Made by a program: the position numbers and the translations under genes
NCBI GenBank assembly: GCA_019915135.1
Contig: JAHLMK010000013.1
Coordinates: 62,001-126,000, forward strand
Direction of reading: 5' to 3'
DNA: 64,000 nucleotides
Origin: Strobilurus pachycystidiatus
Taxonomy: Eukaryota > Basidiomycota > Agaricomycetes > Agaricales > Physalacriaceae
The notes under the pieces: generated by a model
The model's input: only the letters and a program-made list of their open reading frames with translations
What the model was told of the DNA's origin: nothing
The model's database searches: none
In this document: in pieces, positions 30,044 through 44,169 of the stretch
How the letters are laid out: every line of letters begins with the position of its first letter
Position numbering within the stretch: position 1 is the stretch's first letter

Positions 30044-33000
30044 ATGCAAATGCTTTATGGTGCGATCGTTACTTATCCACTATGTCCACCTGGATTCCGA
30101 GACACTCAATTCAAGAGAGTGGGTCCTCGAGAGAACCAAGTAACATGGTTGCATTCATGGGTCTCTGTAGCCGACAAACTCTTATGCGCACCTGGAGGTC
30201 CCTTCGAAGTCGAAACATGCGTGAGATAGCCCTGTTTGAATGGCTACAACACCAGCACTAACCATCAATTGATAACAGTTGATTGACGGGAGAGTTCAAC
30301 GCGTCTACAAGAACCTCCACCCCTCTGCGCGTAGCTTCTGGTTATGGACGACGAACGAGTTTTCTGACAATACCTATGTCGTCTTCGAGAACCAGCGATA
30401 CACTTACAAGCAGATGCATGATATAACCGTCAGAGCTGCTGCCGTTTTCCAAGATAACTTCAGAGTACAGAAGGGTATGTCTTCTTATGCAACCATCGTC
30501 CTTGTGGTAGGTATTAATGCTTCTTCAAGGTGACCGCGTCGCAATTTGCTCTCGGAACTATCCCAGCTATTACATCGCATTTTGGGCTTCTCGTAAGATT
30601 TATACCACAGAGCTTAGCGTTCTTTGCTCATCCACTCTGTTCAGATCTTTTAGGTGCTGTTCCCGTCCTTGTAAACGCGCAAGTTCCTCCAGTACCCTCT
30701 CATTCTTTCGTTGTCTGAGACCTTTGCAGCTGGCTTCCTCTTGTTCCTTTGAAACATTGTCTCTCCCTCACTGGATGCAAACTGATGTTACTGGATTCTG
30801 AGCGTGCCGACATCATTGAGCCACATGTTCACGATTTCAATGCAGCGTTTCTTGTTCTGGAGAGCCATGAGGGGAAAGGCACTTGGAATTTGATGTCCAG
30901 CTTCAACAATGCCGTTACTAATTACTCTGGAAACGCTCAAAGGATCGTACAGGAAGATCCGAAGATCTTACCTGAAGACCACGCCACCATTATATTCACG
31001 TCTGGCACGACCGGTCTACCAAGTATGGTCTTTGTCATTGACTCGATCGAAACGTACCAACCTCGTTATCCGCAGAGGGTGTGCTCAGCACCCAGCGCAT
31101 GTTCCTCTCCATCTTATGCAATGTAGTATGCCCATGCTATGTTGAAGCTCACTGCTTGACGTTTTGCGCCAGGGACCCGCTCCCTCTGCCAGAGCACTGA
31201 TCAGAAACGGAGACAAGTTTCCTCCTGATCCCGCCGTTGGGCCTCAGACCGCATACCTATTGCCGACGCCAATCTTCCACGTAACAGGAACCAGTGTTAC
31301 AGTACGTAGCCTTCCTGGCAGAGGCGAATCTTTGCTCACTTCTTTCTAGTTAACTTCCACTGCGCAAGGTGTCAAGCTTGTTCTGATGCGCAAGTGGGAC
31401 GTCGATCAAGGTAATTTACGAGCTGTGTCGTACCGGATCGGATACTATGCTCTGACCATTGTCCACTAGCTGTTCGGTAAGAGGCATCCTCTGTGTACTC
31501 CTCTGCGCGTCTAATTTGCTTACTAGTTTGATCCTAAGAGAAAACGTCAAATTGCTGGCTGGGTAGTCGTTTCAGGGCTTCTTGATTCCCCAGCTGACAA
31601 CAAACAAGGGTGCCCACTACCATATCGGACCTTGTTGACAGCAGATTAGCGAAAGAGAACTATTCTTTAGCTCTCATCACTTACGGAGGTGCTCCCGTCG
31701 CATCGGCATTGGCTAAGCGCTCGGCCAAAATATTCCCTGATTCCGTCTTGTAAGCCCTTCTGCAGCCCTGTAAGGGATCGGTGTATTTAGTATTGTTTGC
31801 GAACCCCTTCGGGGTTCTTAAGTCACGATCGCGTGACGGTAACAGTAGGAGAATTACTTGTATTGCTTTCGTAGCTACCAGTATACACTTGGTCAAGCTA
31901 CGAGCGTGCTACGTAAGGACCCATTACACATTTTTAGCTTTCGAAGCTATACTCGCAGCGAAACGGTACTCGGTACCGACAAGCTATACAAGCAAGTAAA
32001 AGAACCCGTGTCGGGTCTTAAAAAGACCGCAAAAACCCAAAAGGAAAAAGTTTTCCATAGAATCTGATGAGTGACCACGAGCACACGGACTCTCAGGACA
32101 CGGCGTACACTCTGCACGCGCAGGGAGTGGGCCCGCGGAAACCCAGCGAAAAATTTAGACTAGAACCGGAACCAGACGGAACAGTCGAAAATAACCCCGG
32201 GGATCGGCTCGATCATGATCGAGAGAAGACCATCTCGGACGAAGAACGGCAAACTCAGAAGGCCACGTTCGTCCAATCCCAAGTCAATAAGATCAACGAC
32301 AGGGAAGTACTATTCCCTGGAACGAGACTAGGATCACCGGGAGGAGCTACAGAACGGCCTGAATTGGGCCAAGCACAGGCACGGGCACTACGAAAATCCG
32401 AAGTATACGGATCAGCGTTCCAACAGAACGCAGCGTTCAAGTCGGTTCAGGACGGTAAAGACCGGCGAGCTATGGAGGACTTGAACCGAACCGCGAATAA
32501 TCGGTTCCAACAACGATTGGCTGATCAGGCAGCCAGACTGTCACGAGATCACATTGGATCGGCCAACGAAAGTGAACACCTGGAGCCTGGTGAAGTGAGC
32601 AATCACCCATCCATAGCGAGCTCCAGATCGCTCCGGTCTACGACATCTCGTGCATCATCCAAAAGGACTGGAATCACGGTGTTTCCGCCATACGAAACTA
32701 TGATGGAGCTTATGCAAGAAGCTCGACAAGGACTATCGGACTCATTGCTGGCTGAGATCAGCGAAATTGCCGTAAACCAAGCGCAAGCTCAGTTTGAGCT
32801 CATAGGCATACCAATACAGGAGAACTTGGATAAGTTCAAGGAACTGGTACACCAGAATGAATGGTCTCAGATACAAAACCCGAACACCATACGAGAAACA
32901 CGACAAGAGGAACTGGATCGCAAAATACGCGAACTTAGTCAAGATGCCGAATCGCCTATAACGGTAGGCAGTCGATCAGGATCGCGTATGTCGCACGAAT

Positions 33001-36000
33001 CTGCGCGGAGCAAAAAATCGTCCAGTAAAGGTTCCCCGAAGGATAGAACCATCAAAGTCGAACCCAGAGAGTTCTTAATTCCAATCCAGCCAGGAATGGC
33101 TGCACAGAGTGATGCGGATGAGGCGATCACATCTGATCCACCGAAACCAATCCCACAATATGTGGGCAGGAAACGAGTCTCACTTCAAGATCTTGTGGGT
33201 CGAACATACGACCCCTATCTACTCGTAGACGTGCGGCCAGGAATAACAAGGCATTGGAAGGATATACAACGGGACGAGACAGACCCCTATATTCTTAAGT
33301 GTGCTGGATTTGAACAAACGGTAGACATTATACCGAAAATACATAAATCCCCTACGGGGATGGAAGTTGTGCTCCAATATGATGACAATCGAGCCCCGCC
33401 AGGATCGGCGGCTAGACGAGCCAGAGACGCCGCATTGCAACATGCGGCGGATATGGCCACTAGAACGGACAGACCGTTGGCCGTATCTGATGGATATACA
33501 ACATATGACTTGAGAGAGAAGCGCAAGGCGCTACATAAACAACCTAACTCTAGGTTGACTGGGAACTTAGGCCTGAGATTGGCCGTATCGAATTCGATGG
33601 CGAAGGAAGGAGTTACGAAAAGTAATTTCGTGACCGCCACAAGCAAAGATTCCCTTCTCGGCGAAGACCGAAAGTTGAAGGACGCTGCTGCATTACAGCG
33701 TATTCGGTTAGGACAGCTACGAGATGGGATATCCACCACCATACCCGATCAGGGTATCAGATTCGACGAACACGGAATACCTCGATGGGTATTAAAAGAA
33801 TTGGACCCCGACGATGGGTTTCAGAAGGGTAATGCACCTTCAAAGAATAAGGCCAATAGTCCGCCAGCTCCTGCAGGCACAACCGATGCTCCTGGGCCTC
33901 CGAATGGAGGGAACTCATCCAAAGCTCCAAACCAAAAGGCTAAAGATAGCCGTGAAAGCAGTAAACGGGCGAGTCGTGCACCATCTCCGAATGATGAGAA
34001 CGACAATGCCCCAGGGGGCGGAGGAGACAGTGGAGGAGGAAGCGACGGAGGCGGGGGAGGCGGAGGGGGAGGTAATAACTCCCCGGATGACGAAGACCCA
34101 GAAAGTGGGTCCGACCAACGATCACATGGCAACGTTCCACCCAACCCACCTGGAGGTGGTGGCGGTGGTGATGGTGGTGGTGGAGGAGGTGACGGCGGGG
34201 GAGACTCCGACGTGGGAGTACCCGATCCCTCTGACGACGGGATCGCTCGGAATCGAAGATCCATGGCGAGAGCGATTACCCCAGCAGGGGATAACTCGTC
34301 ACAACGGTATCGCGACCAAATGGTCGACAAATTGCTGGTGATTATTCATGAACATACCGACAAACGATTAGAGGTCGCTAGCGGCCTAGGGAAGATCAAG
34401 CCCGACAGGGCTGTAGTGAGCCGCTACGCTGGCGGCCATAAATATGAAGAGTTCAGCAAGTGGTTGCTGGAAATGTGCATAATTTATGAAGCCAATCAGA
34501 TGGCTGGCGCCGATCGTGAAAGAGAGAAGGTCAGCAACTTAGTGCTATTCCTGGAAGGAGACGCCAAAGATTGGTACCTAGACAACATTCGCGGGCCCGA
34601 CAGGGCCGTACAGAATTGGACCTTTGCAGAAGCGATAATCGCGTTATACGACCGATTCGTACATGAGACGACATTCCAAGAGAACCGTGTGCGTTATGAT
34701 AACGCCAAATACGTCGAGAAGCTAGGAGTACTCGGATGGCACGATAGGGTTCTAGCCCTCTCTAGAGCTCTTATATTCAAACCTACCAGTCACGAACTCA
34801 GGAATAAGTTCTTTTCGGGACTGCCGGCTAGAATTCGCGATGAGCTCATTGACAAAGGATACTCGGCCGATATTCACTCAATGGATAAACTTCTGAAGGC
34901 TGCTAGGGCCAAAGAACTGGCCATAATCCGCAAGGCTCAATATCACCAAAACGAACCTAGGATAGAGTCGAAAGACTCAAAACCAGCCAAGGCTAGTAAA
35001 CCCGAAGAGAAGGCGGTCGAACGAAATCCTAAGGTAGGATTTAAACCTATAGGTTTTGTCCGGAAAAATAGATTCCGGACCACGACACCAGGAGTTCAGG
35101 CTAATAAGGAGCCTGTAGTAGACAAAGCGAATAGACCGCCAGTTGACAAATCTAAGCTGACTTGCCATCGATGTGGTGGTCTCGGACATTTCGCTAGCGA
35201 TGTCCATATATGCCCAGCCGCGAAGCAGGACAAAGTGCACATCAGGGCGATCCATACCGAAATCGGTAGCACCAAATCTCATGGGTCACAAGACGGGGAT
35301 CGTGAAGAGGAACCGTCCCGTTCGGTGAATAATAGCGAAGCCGAATACGAATATGAACCAGTGTATGGTCAAGAAGTGATCTTCGAGGAGGACTCAATGC
35401 CTGAGTCCGACGATGATAACCAGACAAGTGATGAAAACGACTGGCAGGAACACATCCGGATGATGACGGTTATCGACTTCGAAGAAGACGATATGCCTGA
35501 ATTGTGGGATGCGAGCGATAGCGAACCAGAGCCCGAGGAGGAAGATGAGATACCGCCGCTTGCGGAAATCTCGGATGACGAGCTCAGTAATATGAGTGAG
35601 TCATATTCGGACGAGGAAGAAGACTCCATGGAAGGCGATGATGGTTTCGCCGTTGAAGAGTTCGACACACCAAGGGAGGTGTACGTTTCTGATGTCAAGG
35701 TTGAGACTCGATCGAGTCATAACGAATGTATGGCCTCGATACATACAGCAAGCGAAGAGGAACGGCACGTACCCCGCCAAATCACATTGAAGGTGGCGGG
35801 GACTATGGATAGGCCGACGTTTCCTCCAGAAGATAAGCGATGCCTCGCTATACGAATGAACATAAACGGACTAGAAGCACATACGCTACTGGATTCCGGA
35901 AGTACATCGACTTCGATCACCCCTTCATTTGCGAGGGCTTCAAAGGTGAAGGTACTAGAGCTTAAGAAACCGGTAAAGCTACAGCTGGGAACAATTGGCA

Positions 36001-39000
36001 GCCGGTCGGTGATAAACTACGGCGCAATAGCCCCAGTGGGGCTGAAAGGCTGTGGCCAGACATACTTCGACCTGGTCAACCTCGACAAGTACGATGCATT
36101 GATCGGGACGCCGTTCATGAGACGAAATAAGGTCGTCTTGGACTTTGAGAACTCGTGTGTACGAGTAAACGGTGTCACTATCCCTGGCGCGATAATAGAG
36201 GGGGAGGAAGCGGACGAGGTGGTACGAAGATACCGACTGAAAAGAGAATGACTCCCAGGAGTCAAACCGACTTCAGTGGAAGAAGTCGCAGACGAAGAAT
36301 CGGAAAATGAGATTCGTGCTATGAGATCAAGAGCACTACCATCGGACGCTCCCCTGCTTATGAAAGAGGGAGAATATGAAGAATGGCGGAAGAAACCGCC
36401 AGAAGCCATGAAAAGAAGAAGGCAAGGGAAGAAAAGGACTTCATTGGAAGAAGTCGAAGATGAAGAATCAGAGCGCGAGAATCGCGACATGAAGAACAGA
36501 GCGCTGCCAGACGATGCGCCATTACTAATGAAGGACAATGAGTTCGCCGAATGGCGAAGAATTACGCCACAGTCGGGGGTCAAAACCCCAAAGCGAGGGA
36601 ACAAAGGGAAGCAGAAACAACCCTTTGCGAAGCCGCAGGAAACTACGGAGCGAACGCCGGAAAGGGAATACTGTCAACCCACGTCGTCACGGGTGAAGGT
36701 CGAAGACCTAAGGACAGACGAGGACGACAACCGCCACGAGGAGGAACATCATCGTGACCAAATACCAATACCCAAGGAGAGCGAAGAACCGTCGCTCGAA
36801 AGACGATTCTGGGATCGACCAGTTCCAGCAGTGGAGATGGCATGGCCATACGATCCAAGAATGCCCACAGAATGGAACTCCGTCGTAGGAGCACTGTGGG
36901 ATAACGGGGTAGCCCAAACATACCCCAGAACATCGGGAGGAAAAGACCTCAAGAAGAGGTCGAACCCAAACATGACATATAATTATGTCCAAAGAGAATA
37001 CGAACCAAGCATAGTCGAACCACTGTGGTCATCACACAAGACATACAACAACCCTAAACACAGGGAAGCCATTCGTAGAATGATGACCATAGCGCCCGAC
37101 TTGGGCCAGGATGAGACGACAAGATCCATTGCAAGAAGTATTCGAGCGAATGAGAGACGAAATGTTCACAAGGAGTATAAGAAACCGCCTTGGAAACCCA
37201 CGGTAGATAAAGGGAAGAGAAAAGCGAAATGCTCCGATGATGATATACCCGCACTTCGAGAGAAGTGGTACGCGGAATACGAAGAACTCCTTAATGGAGT
37301 TCCCGAATCTATGCCCCCATTCAGGGAGATTAACCATGAGATTCACCTGATAGACGAACAAAAAAGGTATCAGTATCACCTTCCTCGATGTCCGCATTCG
37401 CTACGAGACGAATTACGAGAGAAAATAGACAAATACACCCGCGCTGGGTGGTGGAAACCGGCGACAGCCTCGCAAGCGGCTCCAATGTTGTGCATCCCCA
37501 AGAAGGATGGTAGACTTAGAACAGTAGTAGACTGTCGGAAACGGAACGATAACACCGTAAAAGATGTAACCCCCATGCCAGATCAGGAGGCCATTAGGGA
37601 AGATGTGGCCAGAGGGAAATATAGGTCAAAGATTGACCTGTCCGATGCGTACGAGCAAGTGAGGGTGTTACTGGAACATGTGGACAAAACCGCGTTTGCT
37701 ACTACCTTCGGTACATTCGTAAGTATGGTAATGCAACAAGGGGATTGCAACGCCCCTGCTACATTCCAGCGGCTAATGACCGCTATATTTCGCGACTATA
37801 TTGGCGTGTTTATGCACGTATATCTAGACGATATATTCATATACTCCGATTCCATCGAAGAGCATGAGGAACACATACACATTGTGTTGGAACTCCTGCG
37901 CAAAAATGCGCTGTATCTGAAGAGAGCGAAGTGCGAACTATACGCAGCCGAGGTAGACTGTCTAGGTCATATGATTGACCATAAAGGATTGCACGCCGAC
38001 GGGGACAAGTTGGCTCGAATTCGAGAGTGGAGGACCCCTCGATCCTACCACGACATTCAACGATTCGTCGGGCTAGTACAATACTTAGCCACATTCCTAC
38101 CCGACCTGTCCGCATATACTGGACCACTGCTTGGGATGACCCATAACGGGAACGTCTTCAATTGGAGACCTATACACCAACGATGCTTTGATATGATAAA
38201 GCACATCTGCTGTAAGACTGCGATACTGAAACCCATTAATTATGGCTCGGAGGAGCCCATATGGATAATATGCGATGCGTCCGCAACAGGTGTTGGTGCT
38301 ATGTATGGACAAGGGCCGACTTGGCAAACTTGTCGCCCAGCGGGATTCATGTCCCGGAAGTTCACGAACGCGCAACAGCACTATCGTGTATTCGAACAAG
38401 AGACATTGGCTATACTCGAAGCCCTAATGAAGTGGGAAGATAAATTAATCGGATATCCTATCCGTATTATCACAGATCATCGCGCATTGGAGTTTTTCAA
38501 AACTCAACTTCGAAATTCACCTCGAAATGGTGGCGCGAGCTGCATAGGATTCTAGGAGCGCGCCTCCTGATGTCGACATCCTTTCACCCTCAGACGGACG
38601 GACTCACAGAGCGGACTAATCGCTCAATAGGACAGATATTCCGTACCATGGTACACGCGAACCAGAAGGACTGGTTGGACAAAGTCGACCTGGCAGAGTT
38701 TGCCATAAACGCGAGTATCAGTAGTACGACTCGATATGCCCCATTCGAACTCAACGGCGGATATATGCCCTCAATGATGAGGGAGATGCGAAGTGCTGAG
38801 ACAGCGCCCAGAGCGATAAAAGAGTTTGCTAAGAACGCGCTATTGAATCTAGCAGAGGCCCATGATGCAATTATCGAGAGTCGAGTATTTCAGACTCATC
38901 ATGCAAATAGACGCCGCTCCGAAGAGCCAGAAATAAAGGTCGGAGACCTTGTGTATTTGAGTACTAAGAACTTGAACCTTCCCAAAGGAAGGGCGCGAAA

Positions 39001-42000
39001 ACTATGCCCTAAGTATGTAGGACCATATAAGGTGGCCGAATGTTGGCCTAGCACATCTACATACAAATTAGAGCTGCCTACAGCTCTCGCGGAGAGAAGG
39101 ATATATCCCACTTTCCATGTGGGATTACTAAGGCCATACTACGCGAACGACGACGCGCTGTTCCCTAACAGAGCAACACCGGAACCATACGATTTTGGGG
39201 CGCCAGACGACGCCGAATGGTTCGTAGACGAGATCATTGGCCATCGATGGATGGCAGATGGCACTATCGAAGTCGAGGTTCGCTGGAGTCTGGGAGACAC
39301 CACTTGGGAACCTCTGGATAAAGAAATCAACAAGCTAGAAGCGCTAGACCGCTATCTGGAAATCCAAGGTGTAAAGACACCTTCCAAACTGCATAAGAAG
39401 GACCACACTGTGGTGGTCGCAGACAAGGCGAAGAAACATAAGCGCCGGAGGAGATAGCGGAATAGACGCTGGCGTCAATTGGACACATGGTAATGTGTCG
39501 TAAATGATCGGGACTTATAGAACTTAGACCCCGACCACGACGACGAAAATTTTCGTCCGAATACCAGATGTCTAACGAAAACAACAACTCCCGTTGGAGT
39601 TCTGGTTGGGGGGGTAGAGGCCAGTCTGGCCAAAATCCCGCCGATTCGAACTCGGCAAACAATCAAAATCGGCCACTGGACCAAGCCAACAGAGCATGGG
39701 GACAAGCTCCCCCTAGTTGGCAAGGACCGGCTCCGCCCACGCCTTGGGCAGCGCAGCAGCCGTACCAAAACTGGCAAGGACAACCGACCTATATGCCGTA
39801 TTCAACCGCCCGCACGGACACAATGGCGCCTCCGTACGGGCAATACCCGGTTCCCATTCCCGGTCCATTCGCGATGGGACCAAACGCGCCAAATAACGAA
39901 GACTCCCAATGGGAGTCAGAACGCAGATTCGCTGGTCTAGAAGACCTACCAGGAAGAGGACCTCGCGGCGGACCGACGGTCAACCGTGGCGCGATCATAG
40001 ACGGACCAGCACAGCCCTCGGGATCCTTCAACAACCCACGATCTGGGTTGGGATCCTATCATAGCTCCCACAATAGGCACCAAGGAAGAGGGAGTTCAAG
40101 ATACCACCCCGCGAGACGTGACGCGGGACGGTTCCTAGATTCCTCGTCGGATAGCCAGAGCTCAAGCTCGAGGAAAGGAAAGAGACGAGCGACCTCACAA
40201 GAGGTCGAAGAACAGCAGCGAGAGATAGAACGCCAACGAGAATTGGCGGAAGATGCACGTATCGAGGATCGACGACGCGAGGTCGAAAGGGAACCATTCG
40301 TCAGAGGCGTTCCATCGCACGTCCTCGACGACCCCCAATTCCAGAGCGCCGTCGAAGACCTCTACCGCTCGCAGTATCTGCAGCATGACGAGGAACTAGC
40401 ACGGCAAGAACAGGAAGCCGAACGTTTTGCAGAGCAACAACGGCTAGAGCGGATTATCGCGGATTCTCAGAGAATGTTACAAGAGGCACAAGCAGGCCTA
40501 GAAAGATTGAAGAGACCTCGAGGATCCCCACCTCAGCAAGGGGAGGCCAAACGCGTGAAACACGGCCATATGCCCAGTGGGGGGGGGACGACGTCGGCTC
40601 CACGAAGGGAGCCAAACACTCAGGTCCAGCCAGAACCTTCCACATCGTTAGCACCAGGAACGACACCGGCTCCTCGTAGGGAGCCAAACCTTCAGGTCCA
40701 ACCCGGACCTTCAACATCAGTAGCACCACGCGCCACAGCGCGGGACGCCCTGGCTCCTACCAGACCCATACCGGCCCCGTATATGGCAGACGTCAATATG
40801 ACAGGGCCAGAGATGGAGGCGAGGCCGATGATCAAGGCCAAAAAGACGACATCGGCTCCAGAAACGGAGCCTAAAGTCAAGCGGGTCAGTACGACTGGGA
40901 CACCACGACGGATCCCATCTGCACCCGAACTGGTGCAACGGCGGTTTTACCTTACAAGTGTCGACAGGGAGATCTTCCCTGATAGCTTCCCAGACACTGA
41001 AAGTCGAATCGCTCGACTATATCGAGAGGCGATGCCTGCAGAGAATCCACCCACCGAGGCGGAGATATATCAACAGATGCTGAACGAGTATGAGGATCAG
41101 CACGAAGCAGATACTAATCTGCATGTCCCAGACGAAGGAGAGTGGAGCGACGCCGCCGACGAGTCTGACTACGAAGACTCACAATTGAGTCATAAGGATA
41201 AGAAGTCGCGCAAGAAAAAGGACGAGCCATTGGTTCAGATGGAAATCGAAGCCGACGACGACGAGAAAGAGCGGCGCCGTAAGGAGCGCCATAACGCACG
41301 AGTAGAGGAGGTCGCGGGACTTCGGTTCCGCCAGGCCATGAACCGGTATCGCAACCAACCTGGTCGTATGCCCAATGGCCTTAATAGAGTAACCATCGAT
41401 GGCATGGTTCAACGGGATAACTTCCTTTGGGGAATTACTTCCCCCAGATTCTTCGTGTATCGACCACGCAATCTGGTCCTTCACGGTGTCCGCGCTCGTG
41501 CAGCCCTCCGATGTGTGGAGGAGGGCCGCGAATTCGTGATTACGACCGGTGACAGGAAGGAGATTATGTGGCAGGGGTTCCCCATGAACCCGAAACAACT
41601 GTATCAGGCAGTCAATGCCATAGAAGGACAATATGGTCGCCACCGCGAATTGTTGGTGTACCTCAACCTGTTCTACCGAATATCTCGGTACTTCGTCCCA
41701 GAACTGCGGGATTGGACGATGTGGGAGACACTTCGCGTGTTCGACCAGCACCCGGACTGGCACCAGCCCGAGTTATTGCGCTCGGTTCAACTCTCAATCC
41801 CAATACCCGAAGGGATACTACTCGAAGGTGAAACCATTCACCTTAAACAACCATCGCCGGAAGAGCCTATCGAGATACATTTCCGGCACTTCCTTTGGAC
41901 GAGTGCTCCGGGAACTCGAAATGCCATACACGGATTGATGGTCGGGCGAGGCAACGCCATATACGCTCCAACTGGGTTTGGGGTACTAATGGCTCGGGGA

Positions 42001-44169
42001 CTGCAACCCCCCTCTCATGTTGGTGATGCCACCATTAAAACCTATATCCGTATCCTGGCGTCCATAGTGGCGACACCTGGACGGGCGGAACGAGTAGTTC
42101 AGGAATGGAACGAGCGTAATCCGGACGATATTATGCGTCGAATCCCAGGGGTACAATCGCAACTATTGCGATTCAATACTATTCGTGGAGCGAATATCGA
42201 CGAGTACGACGTCGTACGACACTTGCTCGTGTGTGGAATCCGAACCCAGCACATCGAGCTCATGTACTCCTGGGGAGTACAATATCTTAGTGGAATCAGC
42301 GAAGGATTCCACACTGACTTCGTTCGGGAAGTCGAAGGACGTCGAATGGAAGCCCTTCATCGACATGGAGTACCCATCATTCCCGCCGCGTGGGATGGTT
42401 GGTACTGGCTCTCGGAGCGCTCGCAATTTATATTGCGCCAAATTGTGGAAGAGGAAATCTACGGCGAGAATATCGCTATTCAGCGACGGGACCAGGAAAA
42501 TCGGGCAGCAAGGCCGCGGGTAGACCGAGCCATCGATCCTCGTTGGGTGCCCATTGGAGTATCTCCTATGAGGAGATTCGTGTTGCCCCCTCGCCCCGAG
42601 GATTTATCTCTAGTCGATTCATCGCTAGGGGTATCATCCGCGGTGCCCAGTGCGTCAGACGTGGCGTCTGGGTCGGGATCAAACCCTCCCGAGGAAGATG
42701 CCTCCATGGCTCCTCCAACCGCGGTCGAAACCATGCCGCTTACCTCTAACAAGGAAGCGCCCATGGAAGTAGACGGAGCGCAATCTCAACCTGGTCCTGA
42801 AGGGATTCCTCTACCCCCACCGGATATCGGTGACAATCTCTAATATTTGCATCCGCGGATGCAGACTTACCCTGTAAGTCATAACTAAAACTAAACGTGT
42901 CGAATCGCCGACTTATACGCTAACCACAGCACTATTTATTATTGGATAACTTGGTTTAGACCGTTGACGGTCTCAAGAGGGGGTGTGTAAGGGATCGGTG
43001 TATTTAGTATTGTTTGCGAACCCCTTCGGGGTTCTTAAGTCACGATCGCGTGACGGTAACAGTAGGAGAATTACTTGTATTGCTTTCGTAGCTACCAGTA
43101 TACACTTGGTCAAGCTACGAGCGTGCTACGTAAGGACCCGTTACAAGCCCGCTTCTTCATATCGAAGTGCTGCAGTTGATATCTGCAAGGTCGCAAGCAT
43201 ATGGTCTTACGGAAACCAATGCCAACGTTGTCGCACAAAGTAAGCACTTCTGTGTCCTTGTGCAATTATCCTTTTCATGGGTCGTCTAGGTGGTCGGGAT
43301 TTTCTTCAACGGCCGTCGAGCGCGTGCGTACCATACCTGCATTTACCCAAGTCGGTTTCGAATCCTGCTTTGCAGTGGATTACCTCTTCCTGTAACCGAA
43401 ATCCTCATCATGAAAGACAATGTGAGCGTTCCAGCTGGTTGTGTTGGAGAGGTTTGGATCAGAGCACCGAACGTGATGAAAGGCTATTGGGGGGATCAGG
43501 GTACGTCCGTTGACCAAGAGTATCAACCATTTGTTTTCATCGCGATGGTGTCCTCTTGTAGTCGAAACGGACAAGGTACTTACCAAGGACGGCTGGTTCA
43601 AGTCGGGCGATCTAGGCTGTCTTGACGAGGAGGGCTTTCTTTATATCAAGGACCGAATCAAAGACATCCTTATCCGTGGAGGAGAGAACGTTGTATGTGC
43701 CCAAGCCTTTCTGGCGTTAAGAGAGGTCTCAATCAACCTGCAGGACTCGGTCTCTGTCGAGAGTGCCCTGTACAACGAACCTGGTGTTTTCGAAGCCGCA
43801 GCTGTGGGTGTACCGGACCGACGCTTTGGCGAGCTCGTCGCTGCTCTTGTCAAGCTGAAGCCCGGCTACGCGGGCAAAGTCAACGAGAAAAGTCTCATGT
43901 CATTGGCAAAGAAATTGTACGTGCTCTACTACGTGTGATTGAGACTTGGTATCTATGTCCTCCTTCCAGTCTACCGAAGTTTGCCGTTCCGGTCATGATC
44001 GTCATCCAAGATCAGAATTTTGGTGCGTGTCGATGGGGTCCCTCCTATCGAGCCTAACTTGTTCTGCGATTTAGACCATACGCAGTCTGGTAAAATCATT
44101 AAGGCACAGCCACGAGTAGCGGCACGAAAAGAATGGGAGAAAAGAACCAAGGAAAGGGTAAAGCTGTAA
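30044..44169 (+). CDS. Acyl-CoA synthetase-like (AMP-binding) gene, interrupted by a retrotransposon in an intron
   Basis: The enzyme class activates carboxylic acids as acyl-AMP and then as CoA thioesters. Exons give ...FEVETCLIDGRVQRVYKNL, AMP-binding motif A3 (TIIFTSGTTGLPKG), the A5-like QAYGLTETNAN, A7/A8 (GWFKSGDLGCLDEEG, IKDRIKDILIRGGENV) and A10 with the catalytic Lys (QSGKIIKAQPRVAARKEW). It ends RVKL, not a canonical PTS1 signal. One intron (30679-30729) starts GCAAGT. The intron from 31750 to 43189 contains the retrotransposon; without it and one target copy it would be 58 nt. All exons on both sides stay in frame, so the gene was intact until very recently. Splicing across 11.4 kb is unlikely but not excluded. 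The start (30044 or 30050) is a choice. Confidence 0.82.
31764..31768. repeat. Target-site duplication, left copy
   Basis: AGCCC immediately before the 5' LTR, repeated exactly at 43146-43150 after the 3' LTR. Five bases is the usual Ty3/gypsy size. Confidence 0.93.
31769..31928 (+). repeat. 5' LTR (160 bp)
   Basis: Begins TGTAAGG and ends TTACA. Identical to the 3' LTR except A at 31923 (G at 43140). It contains hairpins such as GAACCCC/GGGGTTC with a TTC loop (31801-31817). No obvious TATA box. Confidence 0.97.
31929..32066 (+). other. Leader between 5' LTR and gag, no canonical primer-binding site
   Basis: The sequence after the LTR starts CATTTTTAGC, without the TGG that pairs with a tRNA CCA end. 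It is full of small stems: AGCTT/AAGCT around TCG (31936-31948) and CGGTAC/GTACCG (31964-31978). I see no match to the first bases of a transcript that would indicate Tf1-type self-priming. Confidence 0.5.
32067..36251 (+). CDS. Retrotransposon gag-protease polyprotein
   Basis: 1394 residues. Residues 1-750 are polar and mostly disordered, with one ordered-looking block (residues 365-500, VGRKRVSLQDLVGRTYDPY...) and a Gly run (residues 650-720). A retrotransposon gag domain follows (about 757-970: YEEFSKWLLEMCIIYEANQM, LFLEGDAKDWYLDNI, LRNKFFSGLPARIRDELI). Near 1031-1048 is a knuckle CHRCGGLGHFASDVHICP, with seven rather than four residues between His and the last Cys. After a very acidic stretch comes the aspartic protease (LLDSGSTSTSI; ALIGTPFMRR). 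The frame ends with TGA 36249-36251, and the pol frame continues in the same phase directly after it. Confidence 0.9.
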   Translation: MSDHEHTDSQDTAYTLHAQGVGPRKPSEKFRLEPEPDGTVENNPGDRLDHDREKTISDEERQTQKATFVQSQVNKINDREVLFPGTRLGSPGGATERPELGQAQARALRKSEVYGSAFQQNAAFKSVQDGKDRRAMEDLNRTANNRFQQRLADQAARLSRDHIGSANESEHLEPGEVSNHPSIASSRSLRSTTSRASSKRTGITVFPPYETMMELMQEARQGLSDSLLAEISEIAVNQAQAQFELIGIPIQENLDKFKELVHQNEWSQIQNPNTIRETRQEELDRKIRELSQDAESPITVGSRSGSRMSHESARSKKSSSKGSPKDRTIKVEPREFLIPIQPGMAAQSDADEAITSDPPKPIPQYVGRKRVSLQDLVGRTYDPYLLVDVRPGITRHWKDIQRDETDPYILKCAGFEQTVDIIPKIHKSPTGMEVVLQYDDNRAPPGSAARRARDAALQHAADMATRTDRPLAVSDGYTTYDLREKRKALHKQPNSRLTGNLGLRLAVSNSMAKEGVTKSNFVTATSKDSLLGEDRKLKDAAALQRIRLGQLRDGISTTIPDQGIRFDEHGIPRWVLKELDPDDGFQKGNAPSKNKANSPPAPAGTTDAPGPPNGGNSSKAPNQKAKDSRESSKRASRAPSPNDENDNAPGGGGDSGGGSDGGGGGGGGGNNSPDDEDPESGSDQRSHGNVPPNPPGGGGGGDGGGGGGDGGGDSDVGVPDPSDDGIARNRRSMARAITPAGDNSSQRYRDQMVDKLLVIIHEHTDKRLEVASGLGKIKPDRAVVSRYAGGHKYEEFSKWLLEMCIIYEANQMAGADREREKVSNLVLFLEGDAKDWYLDNIRGPDRAVQNWTFAEAIIALYDRFVHETTFQENRVRYDNAKYVEKLGVLGWHDRVLALSRALIFKPTSHELRNKFFSGLPARIRDELIDKGYSADIHSMDKLLKAARAKELAIIRKAQYHQNEPRIESKDSKPAKASKPEEKAVERNPKVGFKPIGFVRKNRFRTTTPGVQANKEPVVDKANRPPVDKSKLTCHRCGGLGHFASDVHICPAAKQDKVHIRAIHTEIGSTKSHGSQDGDREEEPSRSVNNSEAEYEYEPVYGQEVIFEEDSMPESDDDNQTSDENDWQEHIRMMTVIDFEEDDMPELWDASDSEPEPEEEDEIPPLAEISDDELSNMSESYSDEEEDSMEGDDGFAVEEFDTPREVYVSDVKVETRSSHNECMASIHTASEEERHVPRQITLKVAGTMDRPTFPPEDKRCLAIRMNINGLEAHTLLDSGSTSTSITPSFARASKVKVLELKKPVKLQLGTIGSRSVINYGAIAPVGLKGCGQTYFDLVNLDKYDALIGTPFMRRNKVVLDFENSCVRVNGVTIPGAIIEGEEADEVVRRYRLKRE
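36252..38555 (+). CDS. Retrotransposon pol: reverse transcriptase and truncated RNase H
   Basis: Same reading frame as gag-protease, after one TGA; no ATG is needed if the stop is read through (the first in-frame candidate start is near 36276, a GTG). The N-terminal part contains two copies of a ~55-residue repeat (RALPSDAPLLMK / RALPDDAPLLMK). RT follows with ASQAAPMLCIPKKDGRLRTV, SKIDLSDAYEQV and the active site VYLDDIFIYSD. RNase H starts as expected (WIICDASATGVGAM, FEQETLAILEALMKWEDKL, ITDHRALEFFKTQ) and then breaks off. After FFKTQ the frame runs into unrelated residues and stops at TAG, because a deletion has joined it out of frame to integrase sequence. Confidence 0.9.
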   Translation, partial: LPGVKPTSVEEVADEESENEIRAMRSRALPSDAPLLMKEGEYEEWRKKPPEAMKRRRQGKKRTSLEEVEDEESERENRDMKNRALPDDAPLLMKDNEFAEWRRITPQSGVKTPKRGNKGKQKQPFAKPQETTERTPEREYCQPTSSRVKVEDLRTDEDDNRHEEEHHRDQIPIPKESEEPSLERRFWDRPVPAVEMAWPYDPRMPTEWNSVVGALWDNGVAQTYPRTSGGKDLKKRSNPNMTYNYVQREYEPSIVEPLWSSHKTYNNPKHREAIRRMMTIAPDLGQDETTRSIARSIRANERRNVHKEYKKPPWKPTVDKGKRKAKCSDDDIPALREKWYAEYEELLNGVPESMPPFREINHEIHLIDEQKRYQYHLPRCPHSLRDELREKIDKYTRAGWWKPATASQAAPMLCIPKKDGRLRTVVDCRKRNDNTVKDVTPMPDQEAIREDVARGKYRSKIDLSDAYEQVRVLLEHVDKTAFATTFGTFVSMVMQQGDCNAPATFQRLMTAIFRDYIGVFMHVYLDDIFIYSDSIEEHEEHIHIVLELLRKNALYLKRAKCELYAAEVDCLGHMIDHKGLHADGDKLARIREWRTPRSYHDIQRFVGLVQYLATFLPDLSAYTGPLLGMTHNGNVFNWRPIHQRCFDMIKHICCKTAILKPINYGSEEPIWIICDASATGVGAMYGQGPTWQTCRPAGFMSRKFTNAQQHYRVFEQETLAILEALMKWEDKLIGYPIRIITDHRALEFFKTQLRNSPRNGGASCIGF
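38513..39457 (+). CDS. Retrotransposon integrase C-terminal part with chromodomain (fragment)
   Basis: Open frame from about 38513, first ATG at 38570, different phase from pol. It begins in the middle of integrase: KFTSKWWRELHRILG, then STSFHPQTDGLTERTN, which contains the last acidic residue of the DDE triad. The zinc-binding HHCC domain and the first two catalytic Asp residues are absent. The GPY/F region (KLCPKYVGPYKVAE) and a chromodomain (EWFVDEIIGHRWM...VEVRWSLGDTTWEPLD) are intact, followed by a basic tail KKHKRRRR. As it stands this cannot integrate DNA. Confidence 0.88.
   Translation, partial: KFTSKWWRELHRILGARLLMSTSFHPQTDGLTERTNRSIGQIFRTMVHANQKDWLDKVDLAEFAINASISSTTRYAPFELNGGYMPSMMREMRSAETAPRAIKEFAKNALLNLAEAHDAIIESRVFQTHHANRRRSEEPEIKVGDLVYLSTKNLNLPKGRARKLCPKYVGPYKVAECWPSTSTYKLELPTALAERRIYPTFHVGLLRPYYANDDALFPNRATPEPYDFGAPDDAEWFVDEIIGHRWMADGTIEVEVRWSLGDTTWEPLDKEINKLEALDRYLEIQGVKTPSKLHKKDHTVVVADKAKKHKRRRR
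39568..42843 (+). CDS. Extra retrotransposon ORF of unknown function
   Basis: 1091 residues between integrase and the 3' LTR. Residues 1-130 are Gln/Pro/Gly-rich, 130-470 polar with a charged helical part (EEQQREIERQRELAEDARIE) and two tandem PAPRREPN-QVQP-PSTS repeats (40591-40740). From about 550 to 970 the sequence looks globular (MVQRDNFLWGITSPRFFVY, MNPKQLYQAVNAIEGQYG, LLVYLNLFYRISRYFVPEL, HGLMVGRGNAIYAPTGFGVL, RHLLVCGIRTQHIELMYSWG), then a disordered tail. I do not recognise a family: it is not a second gag, an env with a membrane segment, or a methyltransferase. It shares the hairpin-rich DNA of the rest of the element, so it belongs to it rather than being captured host sequence. Confidence 0.8.
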   Translation: MSNENNNSRWSSGWGGRGQSGQNPADSNSANNQNRPLDQANRAWGQAPPSWQGPAPPTPWAAQQPYQNWQGQPTYMPYSTARTDTMAPPYGQYPVPIPGPFAMGPNAPNNEDSQWESERRFAGLEDLPGRGPRGGPTVNRGAIIDGPAQPSGSFNNPRSGLGSYHSSHNRHQGRGSSRYHPARRDAGRFLDSSSDSQSSSSRKGKRRATSQEVEEQQREIERQRELAEDARIEDRRREVEREPFVRGVPSHVLDDPQFQSAVEDLYRSQYLQHDEELARQEQEAERFAEQQRLERIIADSQRMLQEAQAGLERLKRPRGSPPQQGEAKRVKHGHMPSGGGTTSAPRREPNTQVQPEPSTSLAPGTTPAPRREPNLQVQPGPSTSVAPRATARDALAPTRPIPAPYMADVNMTGPEMEARPMIKAKKTTSAPETEPKVKRVSTTGTPRRIPSAPELVQRRFYLTSVDREIFPDSFPDTESRIARLYREAMPAENPPTEAEIYQQMLNEYEDQHEADTNLHVPDEGEWSDAADESDYEDSQLSHKDKKSRKKKDEPLVQMEIEADDDEKERRRKERHNARVEEVAGLRFRQAMNRYRNQPGRMPNGLNRVTIDGMVQRDNFLWGITSPRFFVYRPRNLVLHGVRARAALRCVEEGREFVITTGDRKEIMWQGFPMNPKQLYQAVNAIEGQYGRHRELLVYLNLFYRISRYFVPELRDWTMWETLRVFDQHPDWHQPELLRSVQLSIPIPEGILLEGETIHLKQPSPEEPIEIHFRHFLWTSAPGTRNAIHGLMVGRGNAIYAPTGFGVLMARGLQPPSHVGDATIKTYIRILASIVATPGRAERVVQEWNERNPDDIMRRIPGVQSQLLRFNTIRGANIDEYDVVRHLLVCGIRTQHIELMYSWGVQYLSGISEGFHTDFVREVEGRRMEALHRHGVPIIPAAWDGWYWLSERSQFILRQIVEEEIYGENIAIQRRDQENRAARPRVDRAIDPRWVPIGVSPMRRFVLPPRPEDLSLVDSSLGVSSAVPSASDVASGSGSNPPEEDASMAPPTAVETMPLTSNKEAPMEVDGAQSQPGPEGIPLPPPDIGDNL
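42975..42985 (+). promoter_or_regulatory. Polypurine tract
   Basis: AAGAGGGGGTG ends directly at the 3' LTR start (TGTAAGG at 42986). This is the expected position of the second-strand primer. Confidence 0.7.
42986..43145 (+). repeat. 3' LTR (160 bp)
   Basis: The direct copy of 31769-31928 with one substitution. Preceded by a purine-rich tract and followed by target duplication AGCCC. Confidence 0.97.
43146..43150. repeat. Target-site duplication, right copy
   Basis: AGCCC immediately after the 3' LTR, identical to the five bases before the 5' LTR. It proves that both LTRs belong to one insertion. Confidence 0.93.

Follow-up and report, generated by a model that had tools for sequence, protein, structure and literature searches.

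Structure of the element

All coordinates are positions in the window, i.e. the whole 64,000-nt stretch of Strobilurus pachycystidiatus DNA that was analysed (contig JAHLMK010000013.1, positions 62,001-126,000, forward strand). At 31769-43145 (11,377 bp) it harbors an LTR retrotransposon of the Ty3/gypsy type from an Agaricomycete-type fungus, with all features below given on the plus strand. The element is bordered by a target-site duplication, AGCCC (31764-31768 and 43146-43150, without strand), and by two 160-bp LTRs (31769-31928 and 42986-43145) that show TG...CA ends and differ from each other at one position. The first ORF (32067-36251; 1394 aa, stop TGA) encodes Gag and protease, with zinc-knuckle (E 0.0035) and aspartyl-protease (E 3e-5) matches that are all below Pfam's cut-offs. 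Its stop codon is in frame with pol, which goes on in the same frame (36252-38555) with reverse transcriptase (RT) and RNase H, an arrangement that makes stop readthrough probable; the stop codon itself lies in a hairpin, TGACTCC-ca-GGAGTCA (36249-36264). The pol frame closes shortly past a deletion junction (38510-38525), where the zinc-binding and core parts of the integrase are lost, and the 3' remainder of pol (38570-39457) shows an SH3_Tf2-1 domain. Relative to C21, another copy of the same family (family A), the deletion comprises 1078 bp, and C21 holds a 16-nt direct repeat (13/16 alike) at the ends of the segment concerned; a recount of the copy comparison gives indel sizes of 1078 and 85 bp. 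The third ORF (39568-42843; 1091 aa) has no Pfam match, and one search with words from its first 500 residues yielded no homologue among 7990 candidates scored. It contains a 72-bp tandem repeat by which one hairpin is tripled.

The order gag, protease, RT, RNase H, and integrase is found when the window copy and its relatives are pooled: relative B from the same genome shows RT, RNase H, integrase (H2C2, rve), and SH3_Tf2-1 domains, and the scanned part of C21 matches RNase H, integrase, and SH3. C21 also carries an inverted copy (about 125 nt, 90%) of its own integrase-side sequence, apparently the trace of a strand-switch event within family A.

Density and distribution of the hairpins

An earlier note on this DNA had described the element, from a count by eye, as packed with short perfect inverted repeats. 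An exhaustive count (loops of 0-7 nt) yields 107 stems with arms of at least 6 bp, 36 with at least 7 bp, and 11 with at least 8 bp, so the figures of that note (22 and 9 for the two longer classes) reported a real excess but undercounted it. All stems it listed are present where it placed them (9 of 9 with 8-bp arms, 13 of 13 with 7-bp arms), the one at 39901 having in fact arms of 8 bp. The LTR carries GAACCCC-ttc-GGGGTTC (31801-31817, repeated at 43018-43034 in the 3' LTR) and GTCACG-atcg-CGTGAC (31822-31837, repeated at 43039-43054), and the leader TAGCTT-tcg-AAGCTA (31935-31949), CGGTAC-tcg-GTACCG (31964-31978), and GGTCTT-aaa-AAGACC (32014-32028). The spacer between pol and the third ORF holds GACACAT-ggta-ATGTGTC (39482-39499) and the palindrome GACGAAAA/TTTTCGTC (39542-39557); 3' of the third ORF, the palindrome TGCATCCG/CGGATGCA (42848-42863) is followed by the non-coding hairpin GACTTAC-cct-GTAAGTC (42864-42880). 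A further palindrome, CTCGATCA/TGATCGAG, is found at 32208-32223. Hairpins with 8-bp arms have loops of 1 nt (39901-39917), 3 nt (35024-35042, 42263-42281, and 42155-42173, the last absent from the earlier list), 4 nt (41825-41844), 6 nt (33428-33449), and 7 nt (35058-35080 and 42290-42312).

Dinucleotide-preserving shuffles of the element (n = 200), a check that the earlier note had proposed, do not reach this density: they contain on average 16.5, 4.0, and 0.9 stems (arms of at least 6, 7, and 8 bp) and at most 27, 10, and 5. Their means are close to the note's chance arithmetic (5.6 for at least 7 bp and 1.4 for at least 8 bp). Host DNA is at chance level, in line with the note's impression of the host genes, with 16-24, 2-10, and 0-3 stems in seven stretches of 11,377 bp, some of them overlapping. 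The element thus carries about 100 hairpins, some six to eight times the chance number. When the ORFs of C21 are shuffled synonymously (60 shuffles per ORF, loops of 3-8 nt), the protein is kept and the density is not reproduced: 30 stems are observed in pol versus a mean of 5.6 (maximum 10), 26 versus 5.6 (maximum 11) in gag-pro, and 29 versus 5.3 (maximum 13) in the third ORF. The hairpin density is not an effect of composition or codon usage; the note had argued against a codon effect alone, from the presence of stems in coding and non-coding parts alike. Stems occur in all three ORFs and also in the LTR, the leader, the gap, and the 3' part. The non-coding parts of family A, 718 nt in all, hold 12 hairpins where 1.2 are expected, twice the density of the coding ones. 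All 23 of the 500-bp bins along the element hold at least two stems, and spacing is near random and slightly even (CV 0.83 in A versus 0.99 for random placement, with 1% and 5% quantiles of 0.81 and 0.85; 0.88 versus 0.98 in B). No codon-register preference appears against synonymous shuffles, and no known RNA family matches the element at E up to 1.

Loops of 0-8 nt account for the strong excess, which peaks at 4 nt; for loops of 9-30 nt and arms of at least 6 bp it is slight (51 versus 42.7 in the element, 65 versus 46.2 in B). Among 6-nt arms spaced 3-8 nt apart, C21 shows 134 inverted repeats (17.9 expected), 50 direct (21.6), 34 mirror (19.2), and 33 parallel-complement ones (16.8). Direct and mirror repeats in family A are about doubled and far fewer than inverted ones; host DNA also has more than twice the expected direct repeats (133 versus 52.8). 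The parallel-complement excess is partly a by-product of the hairpins, since 15 of 33 such repeats in A and 24 of 37 in B overlap them. That chance, base composition, codon usage, or simple repeats are the source of the stems has a negligible probability: about 16 of the 107 are chance stems and the 72-bp tandem repeat triples one, yet the excess survives the comparison of repeat types, the counts in relatives, and the dinucleotide and synonymous shuffles, by which this candidate is refuted.

The folding energy points the same way as the counts. MFED amounts to 13.5% in the element (se 1.2; 35 fragments of 350 nt), 16.2% in B (24 fragments), and -0.3% in host DNA (35 fragments), obtained with dinucleotide-preserving shuffles, from which the published GORS algorithm may differ in details. 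Both elements lie above the GORS threshold of 3% over the genome, as given in the available part of the literature. Plus and minus strands fold equally well (13.5% and 12.5%), so RNA and cDNA are indistinguishable as the folded form.

Form of the stems and comparison with relatives

In family A, enrichment is flat from 6 bp upward (observed/expected 78/10.3, 20/2.7, 7/0.8, and 1/0.2 for arms of 6, 7, 8, and 9 bp) and 5-bp stems are doubled (90/42.8); 28 of 106 stems of at least 6 bp reach at least 7 bp (0.26), at an overall enrichment of 7.6-fold. Relative B shows 36/10.8, 32/2.6, 13/0.9, and 5/0.1 for arms of 6, 7, 8, and at least 9 bp, and the typical stem thus measures 7 bp in B and 6 bp in A. 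Of the 10 distinct non-coding stems of A, seven have arms of 6 bp and the other three arms of 7 bp, loop-0 palindromes being scored as 6-bp stems with a 4-nt loop. This suggests a stem-length threshold near 6 bp in A and 7 bp in B that also holds in non-coding parts. The LTR and leader of another relative, C9a, hold arms of 7 and 9 bp.

Watson-Crick stems in A are enriched about 8-9-fold, stems with a transversion mismatch are doubled (81 versus 41.7), and those containing G-U show a weak excess (41 versus 26.6, 11 versus 9.4, and 7 versus 2.8 for arms of 6, 7, and 8 bp). Arm GC in A is not clearly raised (0.559 versus 0.540, se 0.015), whereas C9a arms are GC-richer than chance (0.565 versus 0.502, se 0.024). 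Since G-U stems are little enriched and arms not clearly GC-enriched, stability as such does not appear to be the selected target. In B, at an arm length of 7, stems with an A-C mismatch (44; 11.9 expected) outnumber G-U stems (23; 9.3 expected). In both families the loops are rich in A/T and poor in C; no loop motif beyond A/T-richness was found, and no tuning of the flanks to free the hairpins was detected. Compared with stems from synonymous shuffles, family A prefers A at position -5 and C/G at -4 of the 5' arm as well as A at the ninth nt past the loop (chi2 18.0, 22.2, and 21.3, 3 df); one of these lies outside the paired part. The test covered 28 positions per family (22 distinct) in A and B and kept the tripled hairpin in; none of the 28 positions of B passes the limit applied to A. 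Arm composition differs between the two families.

Relative B, whose pol shares 67% aa identity with the element, is equally hairpin-saturated, and other relatives range from no excess to about fourfold, so that high density recurs in a relative, a point that the earlier note had wished to see checked. Particular stems are not conserved: only 2 of 26 mappable stems in pol and 0 of 17 in gag are kept between A and B, where hairpins recur at new positions. Of 132 pairs in which both sides differ, 47 are Watson-Crick, close to the one third that chance would give by simple arithmetic; the covariation for which that note had proposed a test is absent at this distance. Codon position 3 in pol is not better conserved inside stems (0.354 and 0.365 versus 0.382). 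Arms show no sign of protection after insertion, since in the C4 copy 5 of the 29 single-base differences considered lie in arms (3.2 expected; 32 were found and three beside the deletion junction excluded), and in C21 none of the 6 used does (10 found). Between C9b, C13b, and C20r some differences cluster in one arm, as seen without comparison to a control. Relative C1 has identical LTRs and stems at chance level (13 versus 11.6), and its family hence transposes without hairpins. In an RT tree, C8, C32, and C1 group together yet differ in stem density; this is the only grouping used, the A/B placement having 42-47% support and the C3 row being spoilt by a spurious match. As two viral-contig scans and one genome-contig scan returned no relatives outside the host genome, all comparisons of retrotransposon DNA rest on one fungal genome.

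Possible causes and known systems

It is considered moderately probable that this element was shaped by selection favouring short hairpins in its single-stranded form (genomic RNA or cDNA) wherever they lie, which would amount to GORS in an LTR retrotransposon. Independently of position, such selection would fill it with perfect hairpins that have loops of 3-8 nt and stems of roughly 6 bp upward, and the folded form would be the single-stranded element, most simply its genomic RNA. We infer selection rather than mutation bias as the cause, and RNA rather than cDNA as the folded strand. The preferred purpose would be to shield the genomic RNA against whatever binds single strands by sequence, host RNA silencing foremost, since such shielding calls for many hairpins at arbitrary places and for no conserved site. 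For selection speak the excess over both kinds of shuffle, the MFED values, the loop lengths (3-8 nt, most often 4 in family A), which are the geometry of single-strand hairpins, the A/T-rich loops, the sequence preferences around A stems, and the density kept during turnover of positions; the host, moreover, has Argonaute (Piwi-domain) matches at nine places and RdRP matches at nine (hits grouped by us). Against it stand the missing A/B covariation, the lack of position-3 conservation in stems, the weak G-U excess and unclear GC enrichment, the equal folding of both strands, the untuned flanks, the arms unprotected after insertion, and the chance-level stems of C1. In simulations, all parameters of which were our choice, selection on random proteins for stems of at least 6 perfect pairs gives a flat arm-length enrichment, as in A, and predicts dense non-coding parts with only 6- and 7-bp stems, as seen; it misses the doubled 5-bp stems (46/60.4 in the model, 90/42.8 in A) and the doubled transversion-mismatch stems (76 versus 64.4 in the model, 81 versus 41.7 in A).

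The main rival is a mutational drive, in which the nascent strand folds back during reverse transcription, copies a nearby inverted repeat, and perfects imperfect hairpins, with purifying selection leaving only the silent corrections. It is thought rather unlikely, although in the models template-switch mutation would fit the stem lengths of B about as well as selection does. Two strong variants of a drive simulation produce Watson-Crick stems without G-U excess and an enrichment climbing with arm length, a trend matched by B and also seen in C9a and C9b; the inverted copy in C21 is an apparent strand switch in family A, and the available part of PMC8604942 documents yeast genes in which templates were switched between short inverted repeats. 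For A the same variants overshoot, with at least 7-bp stems making up 0.47 and 0.54 of those of at least 6 bp instead of 0.26, whereas three weaker ones (0.29-0.35) reach an enrichment of only 1.9-3.2-fold instead of 7.6-fold. Without constraint, the drive model gives 55 of 121 stems of at least 8 bp, and the 10 distinct non-coding A stems include none, a comparison of few stems with our own model that the longer arms in the LTR and leader of C9a qualify. Drive by copying would not predict A/T-rich loops either. The foldback replication error that the earlier note had offered thus suits B's arm lengths but, under the models tried, not A's non-coding stems.

Dispersed coat-protein binding sites have been proposed for single-stranded RNA phages, and the roughly 100 hairpins could likewise be packaging or coating signals bound by the element's own Gag or third-ORF protein, which we hold to be unlikely. 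The hairpins are similar in size, the families differ in arm composition and in their typical stem (6 bp for A, 7 bp for B), and A shows position preferences; these are weak, however, no B position exceeds the same limit, loops share no motif beyond A/T-richness, and some relatives lack hairpins. Elaborated into a dispersed code, in which such hairpins with family-specific stem length and preference serve as mass binding sites for protein coating RNA or cDNA, specificity and positions diverge by family, and synonymous codon choice is subordinate, the proposal remains doubtful to the same degree. Selection for overall thermodynamic stability of mRNA or genomic RNA is already disfavoured and very improbable. 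The MFED values of 13.5% and 16.2%, stems a little more stable than chance ones (-7.1 versus -6.6 kcal/mol in A, -7.6 versus -6.6 in B), and the GC-rich arms of C9a agree with it, but a crude stability simulation yields 7-fold G-U stems, a ratio of at least 7-bp to at least 6-bp stems of 0.52, and arm GC of 0.605 versus 0.549; A has none of these features and B the longer arms only. MS2, moreover, folds better (MFED 27.8% versus 13.5%) yet has fewer perfect hairpins (13 in 3.6 kb versus 106 in 12.5 kb).

With selection for dispersed hairpins as the preferred reading, several systems invite comparison. MS2 and Qbeta share a short local hairpin excess (13 versus 4.3 and 22 versus 5.3, arms of at least 6 bp), which is lower than in the element, while the overall folding of MS2 is much higher. 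The yeast genes affected by template switching likewise show short inverted repeats made perfect across short spacers, but the events described in the accessible text concern 39 genes of the S. cerevisiae lineage with arms of at least 7 bp sought, against about 100 mostly 6-bp stems here (PMC8604942). Genomic RNAs of yeast Ty1 and Ty3 are also LTR retrotransposon RNAs with structured regions, stable ones making up to 30% of the RNA and many lying in the RT-coding part; the portion of the source at hand does not describe perfect hairpins as exceeding shuffles across the genome (PMC11381356). In the open-licence PMC literature searched, mostly beginnings of abstracts, no retrotransposon is described with GORS or hairpin saturation, so the note's remark that no element of this kind had been described is fair for retrotransposons, though there is a close resemblance to GORS of positive-strand RNA viruses.

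A fungal retrotransposon with GORS-level structure, and with relatives in one genome ranging from saturated to none, would separate the GORS property from interferon-type sensors; fungi are not known to have sensors of the kind invoked for GORS. It offers a natural comparison for asking what dispersed structure does: it may serve to evade RNA silencing or to pack particles, or it may arise as a side effect of reverse transcription. Over 11 kb, it seems, synonymous choice can follow forces other than codon usage. In the literature, as far as the available excerpts go, GORS is a property of positive-strand RNA viruses tied to innate sensing in animals, with pairings "poorly conserved in the positions" (PMC7642675) and duplexes never exceeding 11 bp in predicted foldings (PMC3950689). 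The element resembles these viruses in its consecutive stem-loops across coding and non-coding genome, an MFED well above 3%, presence varying between relatives, short duplexes, and poorly conserved positions (2/26 in pol and 0/17 in gag against B). It differs in its carrier, an LTR retrotransposon in a fungus, and in its short Watson-Crick stems (mostly 6 bp in A, 6-7 bp in B), where the excerpted GORS paper prints "most >8 bp". By analogy, the element would work like GORS, although the term was coined for positive-strand RNA viruses, to which it does not belong.

Hairpin density and its independence of codon usage

The Ty3/gypsy LTR retrotransposon at 31769-43145 carries 107, 36 and 11 perfect inverted repeats (loops 0-7) with arms of at least 6, 7 and 8 bp, respectively. 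Seven host stretches of equal length contain 16-24, 2-10 and 0-3, and 200 dinucleotide shuffles of the element yield means of 16.5, 4.0 and 0.9 (maxima 27, 10 and 5), so that the saturation described in an earlier note withstands this control; all 22 stem places listed there are correct. The strong excess is confined to loops of about 0-8 nt. Stems with loops of 0-2 nt can be read as hairpins with shorter arms and loops of 3-4 nt, and under this reading C21, a near-identical copy, holds 106 hairpins (at least 6 bp, loops 3-8) with 14 expected.

The note had also held that codon usage alone does not account for the hairpins. Synonymous codons were permuted inside each C21 ORF, with protein and codon usage preserved (60 shuffles, loops 3-8), and most stems were lost: from 30 to 5.6 in pol (shuffle maximum 10), from 26 to 5.6 in gag-pro (11) and from 29 to 5.3 in the third ORF (13), which upholds the claim. 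The non-coding parts of family A (the window element and its near-identical copies) carry 12 hairpins in 718 nt with 1.2 expected, or 16.7 per kb against 7.9 in coding parts, a count that takes the two LTR hairpins twice, once per LTR.

The element, its copies and its relatives

The element is bordered by LTRs of 160 bp (TG...CA) with one difference between them and by a 5-bp target-site duplication, AGCCC. Its gag-protease frame (1394 aa) ends at an in-frame TGA, located within the perfect hairpin 36249-36264, and RT-RNase H follows 3' without a change of frame. Six relatives (family B, C9a, C9b, C1, C3 and C20) likewise have an in-frame TGA where gag-pro meets pol, directly followed by CTA in four of them; judged from sequence, stop readthrough is probable. 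A third ORF after pol (39568-42843, 1091 aa) has no Pfam match, gave no homologue in one protein search and contains a 72-bp tandem repeat. ORFs of 437-843 aa, possible counterparts by position, lie at the equivalent place in C9a, C9b, C32 and C1.

Two further copies are present in the 51.8-Mb genome, with 99.6-100% identity across the main aligned blocks. C21 encodes the zinc-binding and core domains of the integrase; these are deleted from the window copy (1078 bp, junction 38510-38525), which retains SH3_Tf2-1 as a remnant of the integrase end and, lacking both domains, should not be autonomous. In C21, the 1078 bp are bordered by a 16-nt direct repeat (13/16 alike). Near the protease end of C21 (L027:4305-4429), about 125 nt are an inverted copy (90%) of integrase-side sequence of the element, a net of about 85 nt extra relative to the window copy; this resembles the outcome of a strand switch while the element was reverse-transcribed. 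Named relatives of the RT among the best 120 of 616 matches belong to Phanerochaete, Leucocoprinus, Mycena, Peniophora and Agrocybe, which suggests an Agaricomycete-type fungus as the host.

Hairpin density differs among related loci of the genome, counted as a subset of the 81 RT matches listed rather than as a census; for some further loci the count was per kb only. Family B (C6) shows 78/11.6 stems (observed/expected; arms of at least 6 bp, loops 3-8) in the first 11 kb of its stretch, of which the first 2.3 kb are probably part of another element; by ORF, its pol has 37 versus 5.7 and its gag 23 versus 5.5. Densities are moderate in C9a (31/12.4), C32 (25/11.8), C9b (28/13.8), the right part of C20 (20/10.5), C8 (20/5.4), its near-identical copy C13c (20/5.0) and C13b (10/4.2), and about chance in C1 (13/11.6), C3 (6/6.9), the left part of C20 (7/6.7) and C4c (20/13.3); in C4c, however, LTR plus leader have 9 versus 1.5. 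Three remoter families show 10/3.9, 2/3.7 and 6/3.8 (3 kb each); three loci probably of the first, grouped by equal SH3 score, show 9/4.3, 9/4.3 and 7/4.4. 

Upstream of B gag, L031:1-2430 is hairpin-rich too (17 versus 3.0); since a portion matches the C4c leader region at 97%, in inverted orientation, a second hairpin-rich element probably lies there. The C1 element (G000:C1:2525181-2535856) combines identical LTRs and chance-level hairpins with an RT close to that of the hairpin-rich C8 copy, and the pair offers a natural contrast for tests of the hairpins' role.

Stem turnover, stem type and models of origin

A and B share 63% DNA and 67% protein identity in pol. Only 2 of 26 mappable A pol stems (of 30) are fully Watson-Crick in B, and 2 of 35 (of 37) in the reverse direction; no mappable gag stem is kept in either direction (17 mappable of 26, and 15 of 23). 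Covariation of paired positions, for which the note had proposed a test, did not appear: pairs changed on both sides are Watson-Crick in 47 of 132 cases (9/28, 15/34, 13/35 and 10/35 by comparison), about the one third expected by chance. Third codon positions in stems show no extra conservation between A and B in pol (0.354 and 0.365 versus 0.382) or gag (0.270 versus 0.274; 0.291 versus 0.272). Closer relatives (C9b; C13b, 92%; the right part of C20, 79%) have a mix of common and new stems. Individual stems turn over, and density persists.

In A, enrichment is flat from 6 bp (6: 78/10.3, 7: 20/2.7, 8: 7/0.8, 9: 1/0.2), and 5-bp stems stand at 90/42.8; B shows an increase towards 7-8 bp (6: 36/10.8, 7: 32/2.6, 8: 13/0.9, 9 or more: 5/0.1; first 2.3 kb included). 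Compared with Watson-Crick stems of A (134/16.9 at arm 6, 35/3.8 at arm 7), those with one internal G-U are little enriched (41/26.6, 11/9.4 and, at arm 8, 7/2.8), as are those with one A-C mismatch (43/39.2, 13/11.5). In RNA phages, G-U and Watson-Crick stems at arm 6 are 27/9.6 and 21/5.2 (MS2), and 28/14.1 and 36/6.7 (Qbeta). Transversion-type mismatches are commoner in A (arm 7: A-A 23/7.4, G-A 15/5.9, T-T 11/3.1), as expected if silent transitions have already made most G-U and A-C pairs Watson-Crick, and mismatches without a silent route, blocked by the protein, would remain. B stems with one A-C mismatch number 44 versus 11.9, a larger excess than G-U (23 versus 9.3). Arm GC is not clearly enriched (A 0.559 versus 0.540, se 0.015; B 0.509 versus 0.527, se 0.018), with C9a as an exception (0.565 versus 0.502, se 0.024). 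Energetically, the stems are a little more favourable than chance stems (A -7.1, B -7.6 versus -6.6 kcal/mol), and loops are rich in A/T and poor in C. With 70-nt flanks, hairpin formation (mean pair probability >0.5) is predicted for 83% of A hairpins and 84% of B hairpins, against 74% and 63% of chance hairpins.

Simulations used parameters of our own choice, few of which were tried (sets of three, six and three models). Selecting for 6 or more perfect pairs on random proteins gives a spectrum resembling A from 6 bp up (6: 137/17.1, 7: 44/4.5, 8: 9/0.7), with G-U stems at 15/14.4 and arm GC of 0.531 versus 0.501; 5-bp stems, however, are depleted in the model (46/60.4) and doubled in A. A crude stability model produces long, GC-rich arms and 118 G-U stems versus 16.5. 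Under strong templated drive, as by template switching, enrichment climbs with arm length, as in B; once the coding constraint is lifted, stems of at least 8 bp make up 55 of 121, unlike the non-coding part of A, where none of 10 distinct stems is that long. The models favour threshold-like selection in A, and drive may still act in B or the moderate families.

Folding energy and possible role

The folding-energy difference (MFED, 350-nt fragments) is 13.5% for A, 16.2% for B, 11.4% for C9b, 8.5% for C9a, 8.1% for C8 and 5.8% for C1, with host sequence at -0.3% and MS2 at 27.8%. The GORS threshold is given as 3% (PMC3950689), and values of 7.5-10.7% and about 15% are stated for HCV and SARS-CoV-2 (PMC7642675). 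C1 exceeds this threshold with a chance-level count of perfect hairpins, which shows that MFED and hairpin count measure different things. As the minus strand of A reaches 12.5%, and both strands are alike in 120-nt windows (z -1.26 and -1.11), energy cannot name the folded strand; strand-bound signs are a weak preference around A stems and A-rich loops.

Beyond the observed density, codon independence, turnover and size limits, selection would act on a single-stranded form of the element. Shielding from RNA silencing is the preferred purpose, since it would require density, not position, and the host has matches to both Piwi and RdRP domains (nine places each by our own grouping, on several contigs, some with internal stops). 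Argonaute/RdRP-type silencing genes are common in fungi, and the sequence suggests a large complement of them in this host. Coating of the hairpins by Gag, or template-switch drive, may instead account for the density.

In the literature covered, the carriers of GORS are positive-strand RNA viruses, and searches of open-licence PMC papers showed no retrotransposon listed with GORS or hairpin saturation. The RNA of yeast Ty3 has been probed and is reported as structured in places (PMC11381356). A GORS-like property is therefore already known, and its carriage by an LTR retrotransposon is new, as far as those searches of open-licence PMC papers show.
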